Of a stretch of 34,822 nucleotides of DNA, positions 26,834 to 34,734 are shown piece by piece. Below the pieces are notes generated by a model. It did not search any database. It was not told the DNA's origin and saw nothing but the letters and a program-made list of their open reading frames with translations. The stretch covers positions 1-34,822 of the forward strand of contig JAFGIN010000201.1 of assembly GCA_016929595.1 (NCBI GenBank), read 5' to 3'. This DNA comes from Chitinispirillaceae bacterium. Lineage in GTDB: Bacteria > Fibrobacterota > Chitinivibrionia > Chitinivibrionales > Chitinispirillaceae. The position numbers and the translations under genes were made by a program. Position 1 is the first letter of the stretch; every line of letters begins with the position of its first letter.

Positions 26834-27599
26834 CAGTACTCCATATATTGGGTATCGGACTAATGGCTCTCTGATACAGCACATTGCGAGCCAGAAGATA
26901 GTATGTGACCTGGCAGCAGAAGTGATCAAGAAAACGGACTAAATTACAGGCACGAACTCATCAAAATGGTGACGTTCTACATTTCATCCTTCTTACAATT
27001 TAATCCTTACAGCACTCAAGTCACTCCCGGTCTGATAATCAACAAGACGCATATGGCAAACGCGAACTGCGCCGATATACTGTACCTTTCCCAATGTCAT
27101 AATCAGCATCATCCTGTTTTTCAATGAGTTGCGGTTCTGTATGAGAAATCCGGATTTTACTTTTAACCAATATATCTATACCAATCGTTAGTTTTTATCA
27201 ATTTTCTTTCTTCTATAAGGTAGTTGCATAATTGCGACTGCAGCCGTCTGTCAGGATGGAAATCGATTGATTCTATGGCTAAAGCACAAAAAAACATGAT
27301 AATACCTGGATAACCAACCAGCTTTTTTTTGTTCAAAAACTTTCCATGTCTGTATACCCCCCCCACCACCACTACGGCAAACACACTACAGATCCGAATC
27401 CACATTCTGAATTGACATTCCAATCGCCTCCACATAGCCTGATAATTTGCGATTCAACATTTTTTTCACTTTCATTCATCATACAAGAATGATATAGTGA
27501 GACTTGATAGAACAATGTTAAATAATTCTTTTTCCACAGGATTATTCAAATCTTATTTAATATTACCTTAACACATTACAAATTCTCCGGAGGTTGTGT
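26834..27599. other. long intergenic stretch
   Basis: No gene is clearly supported. A minus-strand frame (27163-27435, 90 codons) has a plausible protein-like end (SIDFHPDRRLQSQLCNYLIE) but no motif. A C8 run sits at 27357-27364. The last 100 bases are AT-rich and lead to a strong CCGGAGG site for the large secreted protein. Confidence 0.4.
26993..27112 (-). CDS. hypothetical 39-residue frame
   Basis: The frame reads MMLIMTLGKVQYIGAVRVCH and ends SDLSAVRIKL. It looks like the C-terminal end of a soluble beta protein rather than random coding, but no family is recognised and the ribosome site (AACAGG) is too close to the start. It could be a small remnant. Function unknown. Confidence 0.2.
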   Translation of the reverse strand: MMLIMTLGKVQYIGAVRVCHMRLVDYQTGSDLSAVRIKL

Positions 27600-30500
27600 A
27601 TGCCAAAAGTGTACCGAATTTCATTTCTGGGATTTGTGATATCAGCATTATCTGCTGTTACTGCAATCGCCCAATCTGATGGTGATGCACTGCAATTACA
27701 AACATTTGTCATCGAATCAGGGGCTGACAAGCCAGATGTAACCGATGGTCTGATTGCAAATCCCGTCAATTTAGATGATTGGAAATCTGCCTATGCACGA
27801 AAAATTACCTTTGAAGCAGCAGGAGTAGGCACTCGGACTGGTACTATATTATTTACCAATGACAATGATTCTTTCTATATGAGTCTTGCTCTGCCTAATG
27901 ATAACAACGGGGCAAACCAGGGCTTCTTTATTTATTTCGATCTGGACAATAATGGTGTTCTCGACGGAACCCCATCACAGCTGGGTGAGTATGCCGTCAG
28001 ATGCGTGAAATTAGACGCAACTCAAGCGATTTTAACTGAATACGGATGGAATGGCACTCAATGGATAGAGAATACAATTGCGACTCCCGGACTTGAACAG
28101 GGGTTTGCGGATAACGGATCGGGTGGAAGTCACGTATACAATTTTGAAATCAGGATACCATTTTTAAGCAATCCCCCGAATGCTGGACAAGCCTATTTTG
28201 GCACTGAACCTGGCAATGAATTAGGGGTTATGATTACACTTGATCTTCAGGCAGGAGCTTTTTACTGGCAATCGGCGGGAACCAGTATTACAAATACATC
28301 GCAATGGGGCGAACTGATGATCAATACAGCAATGGCTTCACCGCGGCAGATTGCTTCATTGTTTGCCAAAACCAGAATTCCAGATGTCAGTGATGGTAAT
28401 ATTTCGGATGATCCAAACTGGAATTATGCATTCGATAAAACAGTAGTTTTTACAGATTTTGCTGGTAACAAACTGACTAATTGCCGTATTTTGACTAAAG
28501 AAGCCGGTGGCAATCTTTACTTTGGGGCTAAGATTACTGACAATGTCAGCAACAACGGCGACTATTTGCAAATTTATTTTGATCAGGGTGCCAATGGTGG
28601 TGAAATGAATTACGTCTTGAACTCTTCTGCCAGTTCACGAAAAGATGATGCAATCAGGGTAGCCGGAAATGATGCACTGGGAGATTTAAATTTTGATGGG
28701 TCATCCTGGATAAGTGATGGTGTAATCAACCTCACCGGAGCTGCAAATTTCATTACAGGGACAGCCTGGGAATTTGAGCTTGCAAAACCGCTTACTACTG
28801 CTGATGGAAATGACCTCTCAATCACTTCCGGTGACAAAGTAGGAATTCTATTCCGATACTATGATGCAGATAACAGCCGTGATTACTGGTGGAGCAGCAC
28901 TATAAACAGTGATTTTAATAAAGTGGATGTTTCCACAACTTACAATGCATTAGGATGGGGAGAACTTGCAACTGGTGGACCATTTGTCCAACCATTATGT
29001 CCGGAACAAAATGATGTTATCTCAGGAACATATCCTTTTATGATATACGCAGAAGATGAAAGTGGCGTTGCTGACATCGATTCTGTTGATTATCGTATTA
29101 CCGATCTCAACGACAATATTTTTATAGATTTTTCCTCCGTTACACGATTGACAAAGATTGATAATACGTCTTCCGGTTTGTGGGTGACAACATTCAACTC
29201 AAATACCGGAACAACGCCGGATGGTGATTACAACGTAGTTTTCCGGGTAAAGGACGATGATGGAATATCGGTAAAATCACCAGTCAGGATCAGAATTCAA
29301 AATACCGGTTCTGTTGGCGGCCCGTCTATTTCAGATGTCAGTCTGAAAACAGGTGACCTCATTGCAGGAAGCTATCGCTTAACTTTTAATGTTTCTCCTT
29401 CAAGTTCTTATTTATTGGTTTCAGATTCCATTGAGATCTCAATCGATGGTCGTAACTGGACAAAAGTAGATTCCACACCATCGGCAACAGGAGGTAACGC
29501 AAGGGATTCGATTGGAACAACAAATCTCAATGACGGTGTGCACACCATTCGGCTCCGGGCAAAGGACAACGGTGGTCTGGCATGGGGGTATTCTGACCTT
29601 ATCATTTTCAATGTCAAAAATGAGGGTACAGCACCAGTTATTACAATTACCTCACCGGCAGATTCTTTAGAAAAATCCGGATCTCTTTCAATAGGATTTT
29701 CTGTTGCTCTACAAGCAGGCCGATCGATTGATTCCTGTCAAATTTCGGTAGACGGATTCAATTGGGTTCGTACCACCACCAATACAACTCACTTAATCAA
29801 TACCGGTCACTATACAGATGGCACCCATATAATACAGATTAGAGCATTTGACAATTCAGGACGGGTGGGTTATTCCAATTCTGCGGCATTTGTTTTCAAA
29901 AACTCACCAACTGTTACACTAACAGCCCCACGGCCGGATTCTGTAGTTTCAGGTACGTTGATTGTAACGTTCACTTCAACAGCAATCGCACCCGCAACAA
30001 TCGCTTCTTCTCAGATCTCGATTGATGGTGGTACATGGCGGGCAACTTCGACAGGAACACTCGATACACTCAATACACAAACACTCACTGAAGGTTCACA
30101 TACGATTCAGATAAGAGCTACCGATTCAAATAATAAAACTGGTATTTCCGGTATTCGGAAATTTGTAGTGCGTAATAATCCATCAGTCATCCTGGTTTCT
30201 CCCAAAGCCGATACAGTGCTGCAGGGAACAGTGACCGTCAATTTCAATGCTGCCGCTGTTGCACCGGCATTTATAACCAGACGAAACATTTACATAGATG
30301 GTACATTAGTTGACACATCAACAACAGAAGACGCCTGGCAGTGGAATACGGTACATTATAATGATGGTCAGCATACCATTCAGGTAAGAATAATCGATTC
30401 TGACGGGAAAGCAAGTACCAGTGAACTCGTCTCAGTAACCCTGGCAAACACACCGATAGTGCGAATACTATCACCATCAGATACCATGGAACTTTCCGGA

Positions 30501-32408
30501 GTAGATACTATTAAATTCAATGTTTCGTATGCACCGGGAACAACCCGGGATACAACGGAAATCGCCTTTAACGGCGGTACCTGGATTCCAACAAGTGGCC
30601 CGTTTTCTCACGTATGGGTAACAACCGATTTTCTCGATGGAAATCATACGATTCAGATTCGTGCCCGGGGAACAAACGGTAAAGTTGGTTATTCTCAGGT
30701 CAGCAGCTTTAAAATATCAAATGCACCATCAGTAACCATACTTGCCCCTACCGGTGGCGAAGCAATATCCGGAGATTATCTGGTCAGATTCAGTATTAAA
30801 CCGGTTGCACCGGCAATCATAACCCGACGAAGTATCTCAATTGATGGTAATCCCTGGTCAGACAACCTTGTTGATTCCGCAAGTTTCCTTCTAAGAACCA
30901 TGGGATGGGAAACCGGTACGCATTCAATCAAAGTACGGGCATTTGACAACCGAGGCAGAATCGGATATTCCGGTGAACGTTCGTTAGTAGTTGATAATAA
31001 CGCACCCCTCACCTCTGCTCCAAAAGCAGAATATAATGAAGCATCCCTTACTGCAAAATCAGGTTCTGATGTTCTTGTTACGGTCCTGGTTAAAGATAAC
31101 CTGGTAGGATTACGGACAGATTCTGCAGTGATTCTCTCATCAGCATCAATCAACAGTTCAGGTTCAGTAACCTATGTAATGCTTGACAACGGAAATTCCG
31201 GTGATAAAGTTGCCGGTGATAATATATTCAGCGCTCTTGTAAAAGTATCAACTGACAGTACAGGCACAATAGGTTATTCAATCCGCAGTATCGACAGACT
31301 AGGCAATGACACTACCATTTTCAGTGCAATCAACCTGGACAATATTGCACCGGTAACACATTATACCCTCGATCCTGTTCCTGAAAGTGGAATCAATAAA
31401 CTGAATGGAAAGACCTTTTTCCGTAGACTGGTAATGAAAGGATCCTATGGGGATAAAGGTGGTTCAGGTTTATCCCGGGCTTTTATTTCGGTGAAAAATG
31501 ACAGTGGTCTTCATGTGAATACCAGCCCGGTCAATCTTGATTCTGAAGACTCTTTATTCAGCAGGGTCATAGATTTAATACCAGGCAGGAATATTCTAAT
31601 GTTGTATGCCATCGATAAGGCAGGAAATGTCGATAGTACCATTAGTGAAGTAGTGTATTATGAACCCAAAGCAACAAAAACTATCAACCGTGAAGGTGGA
31701 ATGGTATTAAATCCTGATGGTTCATCGGTAACGGTTTCCAAGGATGCACTTCTTGGACCTGTAGAAATCACTATAGTACCGGTGGAACCAATCGAGCAGA
31801 GAAAGCCTCTCAATAAGAATGTAACGCTGATCAATGTTGCCCACGACTTCGGTCCTGATGGAACAACATTCCGCAAACCGGTTCTGGTAACACTTTCCTA
31901 TACAGAAGCAGATCTGGATCTTAACCAGGATAGTAAACAGGATGTTGATCCCAGAAAATTGACTGTCGTGTTCTGGGATGGCGGTACGTGGCGAGCAGCA
32001 GGCCCGAGCAGTGTTGACACTGCCAAACATACAGTATCGGTCAGTGTGAACCATTTCACTATCTTTGATCTTGCAATTTTTAATGCACCCGTATCAAGTG
32101 AACTGGTTGCTTTCTGGACTGCCAATCCACTTAAACATGGCAAAGGCACCTATTTCACCTATAATGTTCCTGAGGCAGGTACCGTAAGTTTAAAAATTCT
32201 CGATATGGCCGGAGACCTGGTATACCAGCTTATTCCAGCTAAAACACCTGCATTGCCAGGCCCAACCCCGGTTTCAGTTGAATGGCGGGGACAGAATGTT
32301 GCCGAAAGATTCGCAGGTGTCGGACTGTATGTTTATCTGTTTACCTATACCTCAAACAGCACAAATAAAACAACCGTCATCCGTAAGCCTATCGGCGTAT
32401 TAAAGTAA
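27600..32408 (+). CDS. 1602-residue secreted multi-domain surface protein
   Basis: A signal peptide (ISFLGFVISALSAVTAIAQS) leads into two CBM9/DOMON-like beta-sandwiches (about residues 30-230 and 260-460, the second opening TRIPDVSDGNISDD). An Ig-like domain follows, then six tandem Ig-like repeats of about 92 residues (about nt 29320-31000). Each repeat has a SIDG-W strand, DGxHTIQIRA and an F-V-N end. Two further Ig-like domains, a ZU5-like domain (REGGMVLNPDGSSVTVSKDA) and a FlgD-like C-terminal domain (EAGTVSLKILDMAGDLVYQL) complete it. It is probably an exported adhesin or carbohydrate-binding protein; the FlgD-like end is common on secreted FCB proteins. ATG 27600 has CCGGAGG 7 bases upstream. 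The PorV-like gene follows by 17 bases. Confidence 0.9.
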   Translation: MPKVYRISFLGFVISALSAVTAIAQSDGDALQLQTFVIESGADKPDVTDGLIANPVNLDDWKSAYARKITFEAAGVGTRTGTILFTNDNDSFYMSLALPNDNNGANQGFFIYFDLDNNGVLDGTPSQLGEYAVRCVKLDATQAILTEYGWNGTQWIENTIATPGLEQGFADNGSGGSHVYNFEIRIPFLSNPPNAGQAYFGTEPGNELGVMITLDLQAGAFYWQSAGTSITNTSQWGELMINTAMASPRQIASLFAKTRIPDVSDGNISDDPNWNYAFDKTVVFTDFAGNKLTNCRILTKEAGGNLYFGAKITDNVSNNGDYLQIYFDQGANGGEMNYVLNSSASSRKDDAIRVAGNDALGDLNFDGSSWISDGVINLTGAANFITGTAWEFELAKPLTTADGNDLSITSGDKVGILFRYYDADNSRDYWWSSTINSDFNKVDVSTTYNALGWGELATGGPFVQPLCPEQNDVISGTYPFMIYAEDESGVADIDSVDYRITDLNDNIFIDFSSVTRLTKIDNTSSGLWVTTFNSNTGTTPDGDYNVVFRVKDDDGISVKSPVRIRIQNTGSVGGPSISDVSLKTGDLIAGSYRLTFNVSPSSSYLLVSDSIEISIDGRNWTKVDSTPSATGGNARDSIGTTNLNDGVHTIRLRAKDNGGLAWGYSDLIIFNVKNEGTAPVITITSPADSLEKSGSLSIGFSVALQAGRSIDSCQISVDGFNWVRTTTNTTHLINTGHYTDGTHIIQIRAFDNSGRVGYSNSAAFVFKNSPTVTLTAPRPDSVVSGTLIVTFTSTAIAPATIASSQISIDGGTWRATSTGTLDTLNTQTLTEGSHTIQIRATDSNNKTGISGIRKFVVRNNPSVILVSPKADTVLQGTVTVNFNAAAVAPAFITRRNIYIDGTLVDTSTTEDAWQWNTVHYNDGQHTIQVRIIDSDGKASTSELVSVTLANTPIVRILSPSDTMELSGVDTIKFNVSYAPGTTRDTTEIAFNGGTWIPTSGPFSHVWVTTDFLDGNHTIQIRARGTNGKVGYSQVSSFKISNAPSVTILAPTGGEAISGDYLVRFSIKPVAPAIITRRSISIDGNPWSDNLVDSASFLLRTMGWETGTHSIKVRAFDNRGRIGYSGERSLVVDNNAPLTSAPKAEYNEASLTAKSGSDVLVTVLVKDNLVGLRTDSAVILSSASINSSGSVTYVMLDNGNSGDKVAGDNIFSALVKVSTDSTGTIGYSIRSIDRLGNDTTIFSAINLDNIAPVTHYTLDPVPESGINKLNGKTFFRRLVMKGSYGDKGGSGLSRAFISVKNDSGLHVNTSPVNLDSEDSLFSRVIDLIPGRNILMLYAIDKAGNVDSTISEVVYYEPKATKTINREGGMVLNPDGSSVTVSKDALLGPVEITIVPVEPIEQRKPLNKNVTLINVAHDFGPDGTTFRKPVLVTLSYTEADLDLNQDSKQDVDPRKLTVVFWDGGTWRAAGPSSVDTAKHTVSVSVNHFTIFDLAIFNAPVSSELVAFWTANPLKHGKGTYFTYNVPEAGTVSLKILDMAGDLVYQLIPAKTPALPGPTPVSVEWRGQNVAERFAGVGLYVYLFTYTSNSTNKTTVIRKPIGVLK

Positions 32409-32425
32409 GAAAGGCTGGAAATACT

Positions 32426-33421
32426 ATGAAAAAATCAATTTTATCGACAACGTTACTTCTCTGTATTATTAAGATGATTTCGGCATCTCCGGTCGATATG
32501 ATGATTGGAGCCCGGGGATATGGTTTCGGGGGAGCGTATTCTGCAATTGTAAATGATCCAAGTGCTTCTTACTGGAATCCTTCCAGACTTTCTCATATAG
32601 ATCATATTTCTCTCATGGAAAGTAACTGGATTCTTCAGGATGTTCAGGGAATGAATGTGAATTATGTATCATTTGCAATGCCGCTCAAGCATGTAGGGAC
32701 AATAAGCGGAAGCTGGTTACTCAACCATGCCAATCTGGAATTCGGAGAATTCAATGAAGATGGAACGCTGAAAACATTTTCCAATTCAGCTAATGAAAAT
32801 ACGTTTTCTATTGCAATGGGAAGACAGCTCTTTGAAAAATTTTTATTCCTTCAAAAGTTCTCAATCGGATTTACGATAAACAGGTTTACATTCAACACTA
32901 ACAGTGAAGATGGGGCCGGTTCCGGCTTTGATCTTGGTATGTCCACGGAATTTCCTTTGGGATTCAGTCTCGGTTTTACTGCACGCAATATGGGTGCTGA
33001 GATCATGGGATATAAGCTTGATCCATCACTGCGTTTAGGTTTGGGATACTCCAAAAGATTCAAGGAAATGCATCGGATCACCGTAGGACTGGATGGTGAA
33101 TATATCATGAATCGGGATTATTCAGATAAGGTAACTCAGGAACCAGCCCGCAACAACATTAAAGGTTTCGGAGGTGTTGAATATTCCCTGGTATTTAGTG
33201 ACTTCGAAATTGCTCTACGCGGTGGAGGATACGGAATGGCATTACATAACACAATTGGCAATTATTCTTTTTCCGGTGGTTTCGGGTTTACCTGGCTTGG
33301 ATATTCACTTCAATATGCTTTTATGGGAGCAACCGATCGTGATGCATCTTTGGGCTATGGACACAGGATCTGCCTGGTTTTACAATTGGACAGATTATTT
33401 AAAGATCAAAACTCCCATTAG
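32426..33421 (+). CDS. PorV/PorQ-like outer-membrane barrel protein
   Basis: This 331-residue protein has a signal peptide (ILSTTLLLCIIKMISASP). The hallmark FadL/PorV-type start is GARGYGFGGAYSAIVNDPSA, then SYWNPSRLSHID, followed by strands such as FALAMG-like FSIAMGRQL, GFSLGFTARNMGAEI and RLGLGYSKRFKEMHRITVGL. PorV is the type IX secretion shuttle in Bacteroidota; related PorV/PorQ proteins occur in Fibrobacterota-like genomes. The gene is 17 bases after the giant secreted protein, so the pair is likely co-transcribed and may handle its export or anchoring. No other secretion components are in the window. Strong terminators follow. Confidence 0.85.
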   Translation: MKKSILSTTLLLCIIKMISASPVDMMIGARGYGFGGAYSAIVNDPSASYWNPSRLSHIDHISLMESNWILQDVQGMNVNYVSFAMPLKHVGTISGSWLLNHANLEFGEFNEDGTLKTFSNSANENTFSIAMGRQLFEKFLFLQKFSIGFTINRFTFNTNSEDGAGSGFDLGMSTEFPLGFSLGFTARNMGAEIMGYKLDPSLRLGLGYSKRFKEMHRITVGLDGEYIMNRDYSDKVTQEPARNNIKGFGGVEYSLVFSDFEIALRGGGYGMALHNTIGNYSFSGGFGFTWLGYSLQYAFMGATDRDASLGYGHRICLVLQLDRLFKDQNSH

Positions 33422-33438
33422 TCAGAAATGCTATGTAG

Positions 33439-33481
33439 CTATGAGCAGGAGTTCAAAATACTTTTGCTCATAGTTGTTTTT
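33439..33481 (+). terminator. intrinsic terminator after the PorV-like gene
   Basis: CTATGAGCA (33439-33447) pairs perfectly with TGCTCATAG (33465-33473), followed by TTGTTTTT. It is placed just after the PorV-like stop. Confidence 0.75.
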
Positions 33482-33636: not shown

Positions 33637-34734
33637 ATGCATAAAGATGCACCACCAGATCAGACTCTATTGCAGAACGATTCCGGATCGACACTTATTG
33701 CTGTGATAATATTAGCGGTTGTAGCCGGCATCATTTTACAGGCAATTGGTTTTTCAACCAAAAACACACTGAAATCCAGCGGCCGTCAATTATCAAAAGT
33801 CGCCTCACTCAATATTGCAGAAGCAGCTAAAGAAAGCTTCTACAGTGAACTCCGTGCTGAAACATTTATTCCACAGCCTAATTCAGATAGCTTAGTTTTT
33901 TCCGAAGTACCATTTGCAGGTGGAACCTATTCTCTGAGATGCAGAACAGATGCAAACCCGGAACTGCTTACCATTACATCTTTTGGTGCAATTCGTGGAG
34001 AGACTACAAAAGTTGAATTACACACCCGGTTTGGACCGGAAATCTCCGGCTGGGGCTTTTCCCAAGGAGTTGGAGGAGCTATCGTTGCACGATACGATGT
34101 CAATATTGCCGGAAACATTGTTGTTGATGGCAGAGATTATGATTCGTTGAACAGTCTGACAGGAGAAAATGCTTATGGGATATGGACCTGCATGACAATG
34201 CTTCAGCAGGGTGATGATGCATTAGTTGGTGGAGGTGGTATAGCTCCGCTTAACAGAGTGGCAATTCCGCCGGTTTTCGATAAGGTAGTACTGGAAAACG
34301 GCCCGGTCTCAGCAAGCCTCTCCTCTCCTGAAGCGTTTTTCGGTGTAGAAAATGGTGCTCTGGACAAATTCAAAGTCGCAACACTGTCAACACCTTTTCA
34401 TGGAGTAGTATACATTGAAGGGGATGTCGGCCCGGTGGATTTCAAGAACTCGAGTGGTATATTAATTATCCATAATGCATCAAAAACAGCTACATTCAAA
34501 GGTACCCTGGGTACGTTCAAAGGCTTGATGATTTGCGACCGGGTGGACAAAATCAACGGAGAAATGAATATACTTGGAGCAGTCGTGACATTGAGCGACT
34601 TCAATGCATCCTGGTTTGGTAATGGTCAGGCGACTATACATTACAGCTCTCAGATACTTGACAATTTACGTGGCATTTGTGATAATCTGGAAATGGTGCT
34701 CGAAGAACGTTCCTGGAAAGAACTGGTTTTATGA
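33637..34734 (+). CDS. PilX-like pilus-associated protein
   Basis: This 365-residue protein has a pilin-like N-terminal helix (DSGSTLIAVIILAVVAGIIL) after a short polar leader, with a possible prepilin cleavage after the glycine of SG-STL; the usual +5 glutamate is missing. The rest is beta-rich, with IAGNIVVDGRDYDSLNSLTG and GVVYIEGDVGPVDFKNSSG, in the style of PilX/DUF-type type IV pilus minor proteins. It would sit at the inner membrane or pilus tip. ATG 33637 has CAGGGGA nearby. No pilin or assembly gene is visible before the window ends. Confidence 0.75.
   Translation: MHKDAPPDQTLLQNDSGSTLIAVIILAVVAGIILQAIGFSTKNTLKSSGRQLSKVASLNIAEAAKESFYSELRAETFIPQPNSDSLVFSEVPFAGGTYSLRCRTDANPELLTITSFGAIRGETTKVELHTRFGPEISGWGFSQGVGGAIVARYDVNIAGNIVVDGRDYDSLNSLTGENAYGIWTCMTMLQQGDDALVGGGGIAPLNRVAIPPVFDKVVLENGPVSASLSSPEAFFGVENGALDKFKVATLSTPFHGVVYIEGDVGPVDFKNSSGILIIHNASKTATFKGTLGTFKGLMICDRVDKINGEMNILGAVVTLSDFNASWFGNGQATIHYSSQILDNLRGICDNLEMVLEERSWKELVL

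Follow-up and report, generated by a model that had tools for sequence, protein, structure and literature searches.

A giant Ig-rich protein and an adjacent PorV/PorQ-family barrel: a proposed type IX secretion cargo and private partner in the Fibrobacterota

Here we report a two-gene unit in which a giant exported protein is followed directly by a PorV/PorQ-family barrel, and we propose that the two are probably a type IX secretion system (T9SS) cargo and its private partner, which would extract the giant and most likely keep it on the cell surface. The strongest evidence is the linkage of one type of C-terminal domain (CTD) with one clade of barrels, and this linkage suggests a private surface anchor or shuttle for a single secreted protein. 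The unit lies near the end of the window, the whole stretch of 34,822 nucleotides analysed here, which is one entire contig (C57) of a 6.6 Mb MAG in 224 contigs and 95% complete. We found no description of PorV-family/CTD gene pairs in the literature searched, which lay outside most subscription journals and outside preprints.

The giant's open reading frame (27594..32408, + strand, as are all features of the unit) begins with TTG; read from the ATG at 27600, just downstream of a Shine-Dalgarno-like GGAGG at 27589-27593, it encodes a cargo of 1602 residues (27600..32408). Residues 1-25 (27600..27674) resemble a signal peptide closing in AIAQ, and the protein appears to have no lipobox, both judged by eye from the translation. 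The barrel gene (32426..33421, 331 aa) begins 17 bases past the giant's stop at 32408. The sequence-only reading had drawn attention to exactly this arrangement, a 1602-residue exported protein with a barrel gene 17 bases behind it; the open reading frames confirm it, and the pair is more than chance, as it is kept in 11/11 full-length relatives. A scan for terminator-like sites found none between the two genes on their strand. The longest stem that it found has 18 pairs with a T-rich tail behind them and occupies 33435-33477, 14 bases 3' of the barrel gene, where it may close the two-gene unit; because the scan gave 7 sites against 6.4 expected, the length of the stem is the only notable thing about this hairpin.

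Two observations concern the rest of the window. Behind the hairpin, positions 33637-34734 encode a 365-aa protein with an N-terminal hydrophobic stretch that looks pilin-like by eye, with no convincing family match and no counterpart at the other barrel loci. At the far end, positions 797-1983 hold a RhuM-family gene and, overlapping it, a second gene whose product is a type I restriction specificity domain just 160 aa long.

In the passenger part of the giant, Ig-like Big_7/Big_13 repeats occupy approximately 29010..31500 (Big_7 3.9e-21 over five stretches, the best at residues 861-929), and a sub-threshold ZU5-like domain follows at 31674..31913 (residues 1359-1438; PF00791, 18.8 bits against a cut-off of 21). 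The N-terminal region (27672..29009), aligned with three orthologues (alignment A3), shows two DG..I..W..A repeats by eye and belongs to no known family: its 446 residues have no convincing match in Pfam or among the solved structures of the PDB, and neither a phmmer search with one passenger segment nor Pfam searches with the members of the passenger profile gave anything convincing. OXA beta-lactamases were the best rows when the four-member passenger profile was compared with structures, at E 0.06 or worse, and were taken as chance. The DG..W..A pattern also brought CBM9 to mind, an assumption of our own that no search supported. The surface-adhesin or polysaccharide-binding role that had been suggested for the giant thus finds no support beyond its size and its Ig-like repeats. 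Over the part covered, conservation of the giant extends to most of the relatives.

The CTD and the barrel travel together across genomes. Within the order, 9/40 genomes contain a match to the barrel at E 1e-8, eight of them full-length and one a fragment, and each of the seven full-length relatives of the window's barrel has, as its immediate upstream neighbour, a gene ending in this CTD. When the eight CTDs are made into a profile, it scores above 140 bits in exactly the 8/40 genomes with a full-length barrel, the next best match being 41.8. Since this profile came from those same eight CTDs, we used leave-one-out models, in which the left-out CTD scored 103-152 bits and no other protein of the own-genome regions exceeded 37.4. 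CTD and barrel are both present in eight of the 40 genomes and both absent from 31; the last, G014, has a barrel fragment of only 81 residues and lacks this CTD. A phylum-wide search of 167 genomes added three full-length barrels (35-43% identity), each lying 7-13 bp 3' of a CTD gene (106.6, 97.7 and 85.5 bits). As these loci were found after the CTD profile had been built, the linkage there is a true prediction. Across the phylum, then, all 11 full-length barrels have a CTD gene 2-81 bp upstream, and in G153 a second CTD giant (103.5 bits) precedes the first. No flanking gene is common to any two of the 11 loci at E 1e-5, several of the contigs being short.

One locus bears on which part of the giant the barrel follows. 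In G031 the passenger has no BLASTP match at E 0.01 either to the window's passenger or to those found in the other relatives, and by eye it is a row of Ig-like repeats; despite this exchange its CTD is 51.5% and its barrel 46% identical to those of the window. G031 is a natural swap in which barrel and CTD stay together while the passenger is replaced. With the passenger exchanged and the CTD retained, it is the CTD rather than the passenger that looks like the barrel's partner.

The CTD itself comprises the last 100 residues of the giant (32106..32405), which we aligned with seven orthologues (alignment A2, eight members) and propose as a T9SS sorting or anchoring signal. Its AF2 model is confident (pLDDT 85.8), is Ig-like with 7 strands and resembles the T9SS CTDs of PorU and PorZ. 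Foldseek placed PorZ first (4.2e-4, the sole match below 0.001), with FlgD and PorU lower, and VIA-align, a re-examination of Foldseek's list, placed the PorU CTD at the top (Z 10.7, 2.5 A, 92 residues). Unrelated Ig-like domains such as that of RbmA (Z 10.5) are almost level with PorU, so the fold of the CTD alone proves little.

By sequence the CTD stays under the cut-off of each curated model: it scores 14.7 bits against TIGR04183, the T9SS Type A CTD (cut-off 23), with only 4/8 members of A2 matching at all (best E 0.022), and 19.7 bits against CHU_C (cut-off 27), and has no match to TIGR04131. The label FlgD-like, given to the domain in the sequence-only reading, is a fair one in that profile A2 finds Xanthomonas FlgD (3c12) at E 0.0056; the match to FlgD_ig (PF13860) itself is sub-threshold, at 13.8 bits against 27. 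A lysine, K94, is invariant in all eight members and lies inside strand 89-98 of the model, and Type A CTDs are reported to carry a conserved lysine in their last strand (PMC10994853, PMC11285876). An orthologue from elsewhere in the phylum (L200) aligns with the C-terminal portion of the PorU model (44.1 bits, E 5.8e-12), the cut-off of 420 for that model applying to the whole sortase.

The second gene (32426..33421) encodes a PorV/PorQ-like barrel, as had been read from the sequence, and the assignment holds at the level of the family. The protein reaches 93.1 bits against NF033709 (PorV_fam; cut-off 90, and 92.8 bits in the genome scan), the only curated family over its cut-off, and in Pfam it finds only TraF_2, at 0.021. 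It falls far below the cut-offs of the equivalog models for PorV (NF033710, 24.5 bits against 250), PorQ (NF033711, 36 against 220) and PorV2 (NF052325, 33.5 against 325). An AF2 model from eight orthologues has moderate confidence (mean pLDDT 75.9) and 14 barrel strands, counted on the model, and Foldseek's best match to it is PorV of Flavobacterium johnsoniae (8gl6_F, E 2.5e-10), ahead of FadL. VIA-align does not separate the two, with Z 24.9 for FadL and 24.6 for PorV (278 residues, 6.3 A). Comparison of the barrel profile with the sequences of solved structures gave no relative and two chance matches only. We looked for a ligand-binding face and saw none, the predicted extracellular loops being no more conserved than the strands.

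The genome also encodes a bona fide type IX translocon. A 2108-aa protein is over the SprA/Sov equivalog model TIGR04189 (443.7 bits, cut-off 200), so that Sov/SprA, one of the components by which the sequence-only reading was to be judged, was found in the giant's own genome, and SprA_N (PF14349) occurs in 39/41 genomes. At least 13 PorV-family matches, some within the same gene, occur in the own genome. Of its 213 candidates for TIGR04183, 150 were scored, and dozens of these exceed the cut-off; the model also gave matches below cut-off in many control genomes and one over it in 1/14. Taken together, the SprA, PorV-family and TIGR04183 matches indicate that the genome has a translocon, the carrier family and cargo tags; neither motor nor ring was detected. 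Of the remaining components named at the outset, PorL, PorM and PorN (GldL, GldM and GldN) gave nothing over cut-off in 24 genomes with models whose sensitivity outside Bacteroidota is uncontrolled: GldM had no match over cut-off, GldL noise-level matches only (0/24), and GldN none (0/24), nor did GldN match in any control genome. PorP_SprF was likewise over cut-off in 0/24 genomes. A T9SS in Fibrobacter was proposed earlier from CTD-like domains in F. succinogenes (PMC6851124), a paper whose main text does not use the terms PorV, SprA or GldM. A clear SprA in genomes where GldL, GldM and GldN go undetected leads one to ask what powers secretion in this phylum, the Fibrobacterota.

Based on these observations, we suggest the following course. 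The giant would be exported by Sec and would then enter the SprA translocon. There the PorV/PorQ-family barrel encoded next to it would take over its C-terminal Ig-like domain and carry the giant out via the lateral opening of SprA, much as PorV in Bacteroidota is described as inserting its loops sideways into the SprA pore, taking the CTD and leaving with it (PMC10994853). The barrel would most likely go on holding the uncleaved CTD, so that the passenger is displayed on the cell surface; PorU and PorZ, according to PMC5562754 and PMC10202324, retain their CTDs, and PorV and PorQ hold these two proteins at the surface. The gene order of SprB-SprF, the PorQ-type family of the barrel and the PorZ/PorU-like CTD together lead us to read the giant as a surface protein with a private barrel that extracts and keeps it.

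The sequence-only reading had suggested that the two genes may be a cargo-shuttle pair. The pairing of cargo and carrier is supported by SprA in the genome, the barrel family, the T9SS-like CTD model and the joint occurrence of CTD and barrel; a permanent anchor of the kind that PorQ provides for PorZ fits as well as shuttling does. A barrel that is a transient shuttle only, with a sortase-like step removing the CTD and the giant then released or linked to lipopolysaccharide, would be in keeping with the role of PorV towards Type A cargo in Bacteroidota (PMC5562754, PMC10994853) and with the presence in the own genome of another PorV-family gene adjoining an M6i-type T9SS protein. We nevertheless regard it as unlikely: one barrel clade for one CTD type, adjacent in 11/11 loci, is more than a general shuttle needs, further CTD proteins number in the dozens in the own genome (150 of 213 candidates being scored), and the closest folds belong to CTDs reported as uncleaved (PMC10202324).

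The near tie of FadL and PorV on the barrel model bears on another reading, in which the second gene encodes a FadL-type channel or a structural, BamG-like barrel, the general PorV secretes the giant, and the two genes are co-expressed for a purpose such as ligand binding and uptake. Against the model, Z is 21-25 for FadL transporters and for BAM barrels of Bacteroidota, roughly equal to PorV, and BamG, a FadL-family barrel, is described in complex with a surface lipoprotein (PMC12611786). Set against this are the PorV_fam match as the sole curated family over its cut-off, with only TraF_2 at 0.021 in Pfam, the giant's apparent lack of a lipobox, and the retention of the CTD in G031 while the passenger is exchanged, and we think such a role improbable. 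That the genes are simply an old operon kept by shared regulation, their products never touching, would accord with the short gaps, the lack of a terminator-like site between them on their strand and the hairpin behind the second, and is the least credible account, as the flanking genes all differ, CTD and barrel occur together in eight genomes and not at all in 31 of the 40 (the last having the barrel fragment), and G031 changed its passenger and not its CTD. That the giant and barrel are T9SS cargo and private partner is the reading that we think most likely.

Other PorV-family barrels allow this reading to be placed in a wider setting. We took a census of 69 PorV-family places chosen among the matches listed, leaving out most of the classes of about 800 and 980 aa and places at contig starts. 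At ten of the 69 (L083, L085, L110, L138, the second barrel of L139, L144, L150, L151, L159 and L160) the upstream gene has an end that is CTD-like by eye; L138, L144 and L151 are single cases that may be due to chance, with nearest tree neighbours that are unlinked or have no upstream stretch. The tree covered 72 barrels (61/69 census open reading frames of 250-560 aa and the 11 of the window's family), and in it the window's 11 barrels form one clade with 100/100 support. A second supported clade, the C113 type, has four loci (L083:4693-7423 on own-genome contig C113, L139, L159 and L160), at each of which a CTD-ended cargo of about 500-560 aa is followed by a barrel of the clade. A third, the C82 type, has two (L085:7104-13156 on own-genome contig C82, and L150), with a CTD-ended cargo of about 1480-1600 aa and then a barrel of about 515 aa. 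Leave-one-out scores within class were 103-152 bits for the window type, 128-175 for the C113 type and 24-26 for the C82 type, a class of two members only and low scores; across classes they reached at most 31.4 bits (C113 type) and 9.0 bits (C82 type). By these profiles, two further barrel clades pair with CTD types of their own.

Several other arrangements of the barrel family were seen in passing. Another clade, of about 20 PorV-family barrels (L081, L104, L106, L107, L108, L111, L112 and others), nearly always follows a gene of about 235 aa, a lipoprotein by eye, with gaps of mostly a few bases. At L079:5053-7464 (own-genome contig C120) an 803-aa PorV-family protein carries the barrel profile in two stretches around a long PorZ-like insert (31.9 bits, under the cut-off), and its gene is followed by that of an M6i-type T9SS-dependent protein with a CTD-like end; among the matches listed, proteins of about 800 aa with the barrel profile are present in the majority of the 24 genomes covered. 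L082:5348-8284 (own-genome contig C50) encodes a 978-aa protein in which a PorV-family barrel part is extended far at the C-terminus, and frames of about 980-1000 aa with a PorV-family match recur in the order, again among the matches listed. At L166:3080-13065 (G024) two genes share 4 bases: one encodes a 2546-aa protein that has a CTD-like end and is AgmC-like in its N-terminal part (125.3 bits, cut-off 275), the other a 782-aa barrel protein.

We tentatively raise a broader idea, for which we would claim less than an even chance of being right: outside Bacteroidota, T9SS may have diversified PorV/PorQ barrels into private, sortase-independent surface anchors, each paired with a separate CTD type, and may dispense with the known GldL-GldM-GldN machinery. 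A review suggested that cognate PorV-like barrels protect CTDs from cleavage (PMC10202324), and the pair described here makes that suggestion testable; a set of private anchors, if real, would be a direct case of it. Cognate cargo-barrel pairs are documented for Type B CTDs in Bacteroidota, where the cargo uses an adjacently encoded PorP/SprF barrel (PMC12618676, PMC9143113), and a separate PorV/PorQ-type solution in another phylum would make cargo-specific carriers a general T9SS design.

The pair shares features with three known systems and differs from each. In its parts it resembles PorQ-PorZ and PorV-PorU of the Porphyromonas gingivalis attachment complex, in which, as described in PMC5562754, a PorV/PorQ-family barrel holds one CTD protein at the cell surface, and whose CTD fold is the closest match to the giant's CTD model; here, however, the cargo is a giant Ig-rich protein encoded directly upstream of the barrel, which itself scores far too low for either the PorV or the PorQ equivalog model. 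In its layout it is like SprB-SprF and the Type B CTD-PorP-SprF pairs of Flavobacterium johnsoniae, specific pairs in which a large surface protein is followed by the gene for its cognate barrel (PMC12618676), whereas the 24 genomes have no PorP_SprF over cut-off, the window's barrel is of the PorV family, and the giant's CTD is below the CHU_C cut-off with no TIGR04131 match. With the Type A CTD/PorV shuttle it has in common an Ig-like CTD of 7 strands with an invariant lysine in the last; unlike PorV, which is described as serving many cargoes (PMC10994853), the window's barrel clade was found only beside one CTD type.
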